From: Patescibacteria group bacterium
Lineage (GTDB): Bacteria; Patescibacteriota; Patescibacteriia; Patescibacteriales; JAQVLT01
Reading direction: 5' to 3'
DNA: 33,912 nt
NCBI GenBank assembly: GCA_028704015.1
Contig: JAQVLT010000010.1
Coordinates: 1-33,912, forward strand
The notes beneath the pieces are model-generated. The model was not told the DNA's origin and searched no databases. It was given only the letters and a program-made list of their open reading frames with translations. Both the position numbers and the translations under genes were made by a program. Positions 24,453 through 33,912 of this stretch are shown piece by piece (position 1 is the first letter of the stretch; the number at the start of each line of letters is the position of its first letter).

Positions 24453-24477
24453 ACCTGCCTGCCGGTAGGCAAGGTTC
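24453..24477. repeat. CCTGCC-GGTAGGC palindrome between miaB and miaA
   Basis: AACCTGCCT-GCC-GGTAGGCA followed by AGGTT folds into a stem with one bulge. It is of the same family as the palindrome nested in the groES leader at 1111-1130. Confidence 0.65.
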
Positions 24478-31994: not shown

Positions 31995-32023
31995 ATGAAT
32001 ATTTTAAGATTAAAAATTAATTG

Positions 32024-32094
32024 CTCGGGGATAGGGATTCGAACCCCAATAAACAGGACCAGAACCTGTTGTCCTACCGTTAGACGATCCCCGA
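32024..32094 (-). tRNA. tRNA-Gln (anticodon CTG)
   Basis: The minus strand folds as a normal tRNA: acceptor TCGGGGA / TCCCCGA with G discriminator, D-arm with AACGGTAGGA, anticodon stem ACAGG / CCTGT with loop TTCTGGT (anticodon CTG, reads CAG), T-arm with GGGGTTCGAATCCCT. CCA is not encoded. The stop codon of the GIY-YIG gene is only three bases from its 5' end, so the mRNA and tRNA are probably one transcript cut by RNase P. The first 24-26 bases are repeated at 32354-32413. Confidence 0.95.
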
Positions 32095-32097
32095 AAA

Positions 32098-32352
32098 TTA
32101 TTTCTTTGTAGTAAATTTTTTAATTATTTCTCTTTTTTCATTTACGCCAGAATAACTTTTTAAATATTTTTCTCTTTTTCTGGCAGATTTTATATCTGGA
32201 CATTGTTCTATATATATTACTATCCAGGGAATTTTTCTGCTTGTAAATTTACTTTTGCCATGATTATGCTCGTTCAATCTTTTGGTAACATCATGTGTTA
32301 TCCCTACATAATGCGAAAAGTCAATTAAACTTTCTAAAATATATAAAAACAT
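32098..32352 (-). CDS. GIY-YIG endonuclease-domain protein placed between tRNA copies
   Basis: This 84-residue single-domain protein has the GIY-YIG motif as LYILES (residues 3-8) and HYVGITHDVTKRLNEHNHGK (14-33), then KFTSRKIPWIVIYIEQC and RKREKYLKS, like the stand-alone YhbQ/UvrC-type group. These domains cut DNA and occur in homing enzymes and repair factors. The start ATG is one base from the end of a partial copy of tRNA-Gln, whose GGTAGGA serves as the ribosome site; the stop is three bases before the intact tRNA. See the finding on this element. Confidence 0.88.
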   Translation of the reverse strand: MFLYILESLIDFSHYVGITHDVTKRLNEHNHGKSKFTSRKIPWIVIYIEQCPDIKSARKREKYLKSYSGVNEKREIIKKFTTKK

Positions 32353-32353
32353 A

Positions 32354-32413
32354 TGTCCTACCGCTAGCCTGCCCGCGGCTGCGCCTTGGGCGCGGCCAGG
32401 GACGATCCCCGAA
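32354..32413 (-). repeat. Partial copy of the tRNA-Gln 5' end, split by a palindrome
   Basis: On the minus strand it reads TTCGGGGATCGT, then a 34-base GC-rich palindrome (32368-32401, stem GGCTGCGCC with GGCGCGGCC-type arms), then CTAGCGGTAGGACA. The two outer parts match bases 32070-32095 (the 5' end of tRNA-Gln with one flanking base) at 25 of 26 positions. Confidence 0.9.
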
Positions 32414-32491: not shown

Positions 32492-33912
32492 CTACTTCAC
32501 AATTTTTCCGCCAAAAGTTTTTAATAAATTATCAATTGAACTGTCTTTTGGTTTTTCTTCTGATGGAACCGCTTCGGGATTACTAGGAATTGCATCACCA
32601 CCATTGCCATTATTTTCATCCGTAATATTAGCCATACTCAAACTCTCGTCAACAATTGCCGAAATTACCAAGGAATTGCCGTAGACTTCCCTCAAAACAT
32701 TTTCAACCATTGCTTTTATCTGTTGATTGGTCACGCGCTCTTTATGAAATTTGTATTTAAAAGCCAGGCAAAGCTGATTACCGTTAAGTCCGCGCGGTTC
32801 GCAAGCGCGCAGGATAAATGACAATGAATGATTATATTTTTTTATTTTGACCAGTACCTCGCTCCATTTCTCGCGAATCTCATTTTCGGAAATGTTTACT
32901 GAAATATTATTATTAGCTACGGGTTGAATCGGTTTACTATTTGATAAATTGTTCGTCGCCCTATTTGCCATTGGTGTAAACCGCGCGGTACTAACGGGTG
33001 GATTACTGGCAACATTTCTGCCTAGACATAATTCAATGATAGCTAATTCCAAGGGCAGCTGCGCAATAAAATTATCTTTAAGCTTGTTTTTCGCTTCATT
33101 GAATTTATTAATATAAACTACAATATTGCTTATTTCCAAATTCCTGCTCAAATCATTAATTTTTATTTCCATTGATTCGCCCAGTTCCAAACTTAATTTG
33201 CCGGAAAGAGCCGGACTTATTTTACTTATTAAAATTTTTCTCAATATTTCAACCAGATTGTTTAAAAAATTCTTTAATTCAACTCCTTCATCAATCAAAT
33301 TATTTACCAATTTAATGCCCCCGGCAGGATCTTTTTTTATTAAAATTTCAATCAGATTTAAAATTTCATTAATATCGCTCCGAGGTATTACCAAATCCGC
33401 CTCTTCTTGCGTAATTTCTTTTCCACCAATAGAAATTAATTGGCCAAGCAAACTTTCCGCGTCTCGCATGTAACCGTCAGACTGGCGAGCAATTGATTCC
33501 AGAATATTCTTATCAATATTTATACCATCTTCTTTGACAATAAAAGACAATTTTTTTGTTACGTCGCCCATGCTAATTCTTTTGAAATCAAACCTTTGAC
33601 AGCGAGAAATTATAGTACTAGGAACTTTGTGAACTTCGGTAGTGCAGAGAATAAAGACAACATTTTTTGGCGGTTCTTCCATAATTTTCAAAAGTGCGTT
33701 GAAAGCGGAAATTGAAAGCATGTGTACTTCGTCAATTATAAAAACTTTGAATTTATTTTTCGCCGGTGTCACGCGCGCCGAAGCGATAATATTATCGCGC
33801 ACATTATCCACGCCGGTATTGCTTGCCGCATCAATTTCAATCATATCCAGACTGGAGCCAGCTGTAATCTCCGTGCAAGCCGTACAAGTATTACATGGCT
33901 CAAAATCTCCAT
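32492..33912 (-). CDS. dnaX: DNA polymerase III subunit gamma/tau, C-terminal part; gene runs off the right edge
   Basis: The clamp-loader ATPase loads the beta clamp. The window starts within the zinc module (FEPCNTCTACTEITAGSSLD), followed by MIEIDAASNTGVDNVRD, Walker B VFIIDEVHMLS, NALLKIMEEPPKNVVFILCT and the SRC sensor motif (TIISRCQRFDF). A lid and collar domain follow, then a Pro/Asn/Ser-rich linker and a small C-terminal domain. The P-loop lies beyond the edge. The ATG at 33842-33844 is not a start. The 80-base spacer to the next feature is a word repeat. Confidence 0.96.
   Translation of the reverse strand, partial: GDFEPCNTCTACTEITAGSSLDMIEIDAASNTGVDNVRDNIIASARVTPAKNKFKVFIIDEVHMLSISAFNALLKIMEEPPKNVVFILCTTEVHKVPSTIISRCQRFDFKRISMGDVTKKLSFIVKEDGINIDKNILESIARQSDGYMRDAESLLGQLISIGGKEITQEEADLVIPRSDINEILNLIEILIKKDPAGGIKLVNNLIDEGVELKNFLNNLVEILRKILISKISPALSGKLSLELGESMEIKINDLSRNLEISNIVVYINKFNEAKNKLKDNFIAQLPLELAIIELCLGRNVASNPPVSTARFTPMANRATNNLSNSKPIQPVANNNISVNISENEIREKWSEVLVKIKKYNHSLSFILRACEPRGLNGNQLCLAFKYKFHKERVTNQQIKAMVENVLREVYGNSLVISAIVDESLSMANITDENNGNGGDAIPSNPEAVPSEEKPKDSSIDNLLKTFGGKIVK

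Follow-up and report, generated by a model that had tools for sequence, protein, structure and literature searches.

GIY-YIG genes inserted inside bacterial tRNA genes with regeneration of the interrupted tRNA: a tRNA-Gln locus of a Patescibacteria bacterium and its relatives

Genomic islands of the integrase type require an integrase and rebuild the 3' end of the tRNA gene. A different solution has been described for fungal mitochondria, where a LAGLIDADG or GIY-YIG ORF carries a foreign gene end (the mORFs of Allomyces atp6 and of Glomus atp6, atp9, cox2 and nad3); expression of the resulting hybrid has been reported, with the native end left next to the ORF (PMC3630166). Phage SegB is a free-standing, intron-free GIY-YIG nuclease that lies beside tRNAs of many isotypes and cuts inside tRNA genes (PMC13096335; NAR 2008 36:2094 cited therein), and a microhomology between the 3' end of segB and the 5' end of tRNA-Tyr has been reported (PMC13096335). 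Finally, rRNA introns with homing endonucleases have been described for Patescibacteria, also called the CPR (Kanai group, cited in PMC10714607).

Here we describe a GIY-YIG locus in a window, i.e. the whole stretch of DNA analysed (33,912 nt), from a Patescibacteria group bacterium. On its minus strand the order is dnaX, an old 5' part of a tRNA, a GIY-YIG ORF and tRNA-Gln(CTG), with the following features:

32023..32094, minus strand: intact tRNA-Gln(CTG), regarded as the rebuilt functional gene (ARAGORN; Rfam RF00005, 56.6 bits)
32098..32352, minus strand: ORF of 84 aa, a bare GIY-YIG nuclease domain (PF01541, E=7e-15)
32354..32412, minus strand: old 5' tRNA part (bases 1-25), whose end is the inferred insertion point (from the sequence)
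32367..32400, minus strand: GC-rich palindrome of 34 nt in the D-loop of the old copy (from the sequence)
32492..33910, minus strand: dnaX, whose place upstream of tRNA-Gln(CTG) is conserved within the order

The order of partial copy, ORF and intact tRNA-Gln given in the initial annotation was borne out base by base, and so were its two spacings, with 1 base between the old copy and the ATG and 3 bases between the stop codon and the intact tRNA. The copy itself, which had been put at about 26 bases with 25 of 26 matching, is real, but we count 24 identical bases out of 25 over bases 1-25 (one C placement is ambiguous). It consists of TCGGGGATCGTC, the palindrome and TAGCGGTAGGACA, and its gapped alignment score was 17. 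Bases 1-25 of the intact gene are taken to be the copy that the element carries. Entry in the D-arm, as had been supposed, does not hold, since the junction falls at base 25/26, on the border of D-arm and anticodon arm; it is the palindrome that sits in the D-loop. That the palindrome arrived after the insertion is possible, not shown. In Gln elements the D-arm sequence TAGGA of the old copy may serve as a ribosome site, as the initial annotation had proposed. A promoter scan gave weak matches only, and tRNA was the sole Rfam match in the window, with no intron family.

The window protein belongs to the GIY-YIG superfamily, which is defined by a two-tyrosine motif, a catalytic Arg and Glu and an alpha/beta fold; this rests on the invariant Y, YxG, R and E, the PF01541 match and a confident structural model (AlphaFold2, pLDDT 95). 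Y4, Y15, G17, R25, H29 and E61 are invariant among its relatives, the catalytic residues included. It is a GIY-YIG domain only, without a further recognition domain. The nearest solved structures were UPF0213, SLX1 and I-TevI. Among these, the UPF0213 family (1zg2, the best PDB match, and 1ywl) contains the closest relatives in both structure and sequence, although the tree of matches was weakly resolved; we know of no tRNA linkage for UPF0213. An NCBIfam search returned nothing at E 0.01. The ORFs are under purifying selection (median dN/dS 0.15), and none of 117 pairs had a dN/dS of at least 1.

Analysis of the same genome revealed PF01541 matches at six places, one of which is a UvrC-like long frame and five of which are free-standing genes. 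Four of these five lie between a complete tRNA and a fragment of the same tRNA, the targets being Gln(CTG), Gln(TTG), Val(TAC) and Asp(GTC). A 5' copy is present upstream at the window Gln(CTG) locus, at Gln(TTG) and at Val(TAC), and at Asp(GTC) the order is complete tRNA, ORF, copy of the tRNA 3' end. The genome yields no more than 44 tRNA matches over its 1.08 Mb, so that chance would place about 1-2.5% of genes this near a tRNA (our own arithmetic); the arrangement is thus not a chance one. Among the 30 tRNA loci fetched (14 others were left out), Asp(gtc) and Val(tac) occur once each and no second Gln(ctg) is present, so the rebuilt genes are probably essential. At the Asp locus (L002), two more tandem damaged tRNA-Asp copies are found upstream of the intact tRNA-Asp, at about 180-380.

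The initial annotation had suggested looking for the ORF next to other tRNAs, and we found members of its family at nearly all isotypes and in several phyla, which is wider than had been supposed. For Patescibacteria, searches with PF01541 (57 genomes from the class) and with profile A1 (96 genomes from the phylum) led to 189 places that were examined in sequence. A tRNA or tmRNA gene was found within 150 bp at 86 of them, on the same strand in all 86, and a tRNA lay downstream of the ORF at 67 loci (17 isotypes). Each downstream tRNA was then aligned with the 240 nt upstream of the ORF, with insertions allowed and with mispaired isotypes as the null. A 5' copy with a score of at least 12 preceded the ORF at 49 of the 67 loci (73%; null 3.7%) and one with a score of at least 16 at 39 (null 0.75%); a second alignment test without large insertions agreed, and the copies can also be read by eye. 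In a tree of 134 proteins the tRNA-linked rows cluster (13 label changes, as compared with 39.5 after shuffling), and a single tRNA-linked row occurs among the 52 rows that make up two other parts of the tree. Other members of the large tRNA-rich part are located in 23S or 16S rRNA genes or adjoin tmRNA.

Several other placements deserve description in their own right. GIY-YIG ORFs of the tRNA-rich group lie inside or at rRNA genes at L010 (16S) and at L032, L038 and L043 (23S). Downstream of tmRNA, a GIY-YIG ORF occurs at L044, L080, L096, L108, L115, L198 and L220; at such loci a long hairpin of variable sequence directly follows the tmRNA CCA, an infC-like gene comes next in several, and no 3' duplication was found when it was sought there. 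At L194 and L199, near position 1738 (ORF orientation), GIY-YIG ORFs are located at the start of RNase P RNA and are flanked by inverted arms; these look like insertions in the P3 loop of RNase P RNA, not duplications. Separately, a 36-nt copy of the 5' part of tRNA-Lys(ttt), without a mismatch, precedes this tRNA by about 190 nt at G024:C2:570438-570737 (L138, L141, L144); this is possibly a decayed element minus its ORF.

A similar picture was observed outside Patescibacteria with the window protein alone as query, which gave 81 loci, 80 in named genomes and one on a viral contig. The named genomes belonged mostly to Bacteroidota, and further to Scalindua, another Planctomycetes genome, Ignavibacteria, Nitrospirae, Neomarinimicrobiota and Patescibacteria. 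A tRNA was present within 180 bp at 71 of the 81 loci, always on the strand of the ORF. Where the tRNA lay downstream, a 5' copy was detected in 52 of 57 cases (91%; null 6.4%), and with a score of at least 20 in 41 (null 0.6%). The mirror form, in which tRNA and ORF are followed by a 3' remnant, showed a 3' copy in 10 of 15 cases (null 0). It is thus a recurrent observation that ORFs have entered tRNA genes and that the tRNA is regenerated, be it from the 5' or from the 3' side, and elements rebuilding the 3' half go beyond what the initial annotation had described. Elements were also found in isolates, i.e. Terrimonas pollutisoli (L274, score 48), Leptobacterium flavescens (L262, score 21) and Algoriphagus sediminis (L256, score 22), and therefore they are not a binning artefact. 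Viral contigs yielded the one relative mentioned above, and phage relatives were limited to Rhizobium phages (43% identity); with so few matches, no vector could be identified.

Examination of the junctions revealed that the old copy begins at tRNA base 1 and ends at a point typical of the isotype. The junction was at base 25-26 in seven of eight Gln(CTG) loci, several of them from different families, and at 41-45 in all four Glu elements; other isotypes had it around the anticodon arm. In addition, the nearest protein relatives from other genomes shared the tRNA isotype in 76 of 146 cases (13.2 when shuffled, with a maximum of 28), as expected for target-specific homing lineages.

The existence of empty tRNA-Gln(CTG) sites in relatives, another point on which the initial annotation had said its reading could be checked, was also established. 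The family rank comprised the window's own genome only, and dnaX served as the anchor for locating empty sites in relatives from the order; dnaX and tRNA-Gln(CTG) were syntenic in all 11 relatives fetched. At L152, L154 and L155 the tRNA follows dnaX by 7-13 nt without copy and without ORF, L157, L158 and L160-L162 also lack the copy (by eye), and L153 retains an old copy with palindrome and has no ORF. Three within-genus pairs show the same. For tRNA-Lys(TTT), an empty site in G191 corresponds to an occupied one in G156, with both flanks conserved. The Thr-Tyr spacing is 49 nt in G012 versus about 595 nt in G054, where old copy and ORF are present. For tRNA-Pro(CGG), the flank is directly next in G218, whereas G204 has the ORF and a 3' remnant starting at the anticodon. 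The gene is thus present in some genomes, at or next to its presumed target, and absent from the matching site of close relatives, as is characteristic of free-standing homing endonucleases, and the proposal of a nuclease-only element with a carried tRNA 5' segment that leaves the old 5' end upstream is supported by both the empty sites and the fixed junctions. Elsewhere downstream of dnaX, in G061 (L159), we observed a complete tRNA-Gln within the D-loop of another tRNA-Gln, with inverted arms ccccgctaaatt and aatttagcgggg.

The palindrome of the window also has many counterparts. Inserts of 10 nt or more were present in 74 of the 91 5' copies that scored 14 or higher. They are GC-rich palindromes with few exceptions; their commonest position is exactly behind base 22 or 23, in the D-loop, and some copies have them in the anticodon and T loops too. 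The 20-mer CCTGCCTGCCGGCAGGCAGG was found in old tRNA copies of both Bacteroidota and Patescibacteria and at 18 exact dispersed places in the window's genome; near-matches to it lie at 1111-1130 and 24454-24473 of the window, and palindromes of this type occupy the D-loop of old copies in several phyla. A position this constant speaks for a preference for the site or for selection, and it is possible that the palindrome breaks the homology between the tRNA halves, so that recombination does not remove the ORF. At the same loop position, the palindromes often form double hairpins that are unrelated in sequence (L035, L055, L072, L074, L082, L086, L092 and L113), with the insertion point TTTT/C in four Glu copies; they are reminiscent of the double-hairpin elements of fungal mtDNA.

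The same architecture, again beyond the initial annotation, was found with an unrelated nuclease. A search for PF14528 in 78 genomes of the order, with large intein-like frames left out, gave nine free-standing, tRNA-linked LAGLIDADG ORFs and one further match in 23S. In eight of the nine, the stop codon either coincides with the 5' end of a tRNA on the ORF strand (His, Ser, Leu or Gln) or falls within that end, and the remaining ORF is placed after tRNA-Leu. At L156, a dnaX-tRNA-Gln locus, a LAGLIDADG_3 ORF (PF14528, 5e-9) separates the old 5' part from the new tRNA-Gln at nearly the same junction as that of the GIY-YIG ORF, and an old His 5' copy is present at L166. A simple test detected no copy at the other LAGLIDADG loci; what these share is the position, the strand and the junction. 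GIY-YIG is thus not a requirement for the architecture.

We consider, with a probability of roughly 0.78, that the window holds an intron-free and integrase-free homing element that cuts a tRNA gene and brings the replacement half. In this model, a GIY-YIG nuclease of about 80-85 aa would cut the tRNA gene at a fixed place, namely base 25/26 in Gln and the anticodon-arm region in Glu, Leu, Lys, Arg and Pro. The break would be repaired with one side anchored on a template that bears the element, so that the ORF is copied in together with a complete replacement tRNA half. The other broken end would be joined illegitimately, either before the ORF (5' type, as in the window) or after it (3' type). 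For the 5' type, transcription from the old promoter (for the window probably that of the dnaX operon) would run through old 5' part, ORF and new tRNA, and RNase P would free the regenerated tRNA from the transcript. Such read-through and release would account for the strict strand agreement of ORF and tRNA; in most cases the stop codon lies within a few nucleotides of the new tRNA or inside it, and therefore transcription of the tRNA must start either upstream or within the ORF. Cutting, repair route and RNase P release are inferred, in the absence of cleavage, mobility or RNA data, and site-specific cutting of the empty allele is suggested by the fixed junctions only. It also counts against the homing reading that the rebuilt tRNA still has the presumed target, with no diagnostic resistant base found in it by eye, and that a GIY-YIG-only protein offers no further domain by which a tRNA gene could be recognised.

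The alternative that both copies derive from one gene as a large target-site duplication, with both strands of the tRNA nicked 25-70 nt apart by the nuclease or by some other activity, the ORF DNA ligated and the gap filled, appears unlikely but cannot be dismissed. Fresh copies at L047 (Lys), L051 (Ala) and L061 (Phe) include 20-46 nt of 5' leader and reach through it to the ORF, which fits a same-locus donor or a local duplication, and local duplication therefore remains a rival. On the other hand, at the Glu locus L072 the old acceptor strand (GGCCCTA) differs from the new one (GCCGCCT), there is full identity over bases 8-35, and it is the new 5' strand that the present 3' strand pairs with; the LAGLIDADG locus L156 is similar. 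These two loci support import of the new half rather than local copying. Moreover, copy length differs by isotype, and known GIY-YIG enzymes cut with a short stagger.

Homing with an imported half also has to be compared with explanations that involve no mobile nuclease of this kind, all of which we regard as very improbable. In a decayed tandem tRNA array the partial copy would be a dying second tRNA and the ORF would have landed between two tRNAs, and L082, L213 and L215 are indeed within tRNA clusters; but the copy lacks the 3' part, lies directly before the ORF and has the same end base in unrelated genomes (in seven of eight Gln elements, from different families), and relatives have a single tRNA and no copy. 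The decayed cluster, which the initial annotation had named as a possible refutation, was rejected on the fixed end point and these copy-free relatives. A resident tRNA-operon gene, transcribed along with tRNAs and with a role for its product in tRNA processing or DNA repair, would fit the common strand and the purifying selection and deserves as little credence; it was rejected in view of its patchy presence and the empty sites, and because the unrelated LAGLIDADG family shows the same architecture, to which may be added the many isotypes, the partial copies and the fact that other GIY-YIG groups of the same genomes almost never adjoin tRNAs. Least probable of all is a self-splicing intron or integrase element that has lost its other parts. 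CPR rRNA genes do carry introns with homing nucleases (PMC10714607) and tRNAs are classic integrase targets, but no intron family matched at the 49 loci searched or in the window, where the ORF takes nearly all the space between the copies and leaves no room for an intron core, and an intron remnant was thus rejected. An integrase remnant was rejected as well, because there is a single ORF between the copies, no integrase is present, and the copied part is the 5' part of the tRNA, whereas integrases rebuild 3' ends.

More generally, we think it highly probable that these are cross-phylum minimal mobile elements, made of one nuclease ORF of ~80 aa and half a tRNA, which have neither intron nor integrase nor transposase and invade tRNA genes that are essential and often present in one copy, have the tRNA regenerated from either side, use at least two unrelated nuclease families and recurrently show GC-rich hairpins in the displaced half, at constant places in its loops. 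The family of selfish elements is widespread, apparently undescribed and probably very common, and would represent a selfish element at the core of the translation apparatus that has been unnoticed until now; to our knowledge, its members are among the smallest homing elements. Gene invasion without introns or inteins would be possible if the invader brings the missing half, a solution that we found reported only for fungal mitochondrial protein genes. In Bacteroidota and Patescibacteria, the elements would also account for many of the tRNA fragments and of the genes annotated as 'GIY-YIG nuclease family proteins', and they offer a route for horizontal replacement of tRNA halves. As element-bearing isolates are on record, these ideas are directly testable.

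The initial annotation had proposed that a nuclease-only element rebuilding the 5' end would be new. In the literature searched, outside which many subscription papers and all preprints remained, no description of half-tRNA-regenerating bacterial elements was found, and to that extent the proposal stands; the elements are not wholly without parallel, however, because the fungal mORFs and phage SegB precede them. Islands of the integrase type resemble them in that a carried segment rebuilds the target tRNA and a partial copy is left, but the window element has no integrase, and in the nuclease elements described here it is usually the 5' half that is rebuilt. SegB is a different and larger protein than the 84-aa window protein. 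It further differs in belonging to phage tRNA arrays, and the part of the source available describes no pattern of half-tRNA duplication (PMC13096335). CPR rRNA introns likewise place homing nucleases in RNA genes of Patescibacteria, but they are self-splicing and reside in rRNA, whereas the tRNA elements have no intron. The likeness to the mORFs is that the tRNA elements, too, carry a restoring copy of the invaded gene part, with the native part left beside the ORF; whereas mORFs concern the 3' end of mitochondrial protein genes and have larger ORFs, the tRNA elements occupy bacterial tRNA genes in many phyla, restore mostly the 5' half, and combine ORFs of ~80 aa with hairpins in the old copy.
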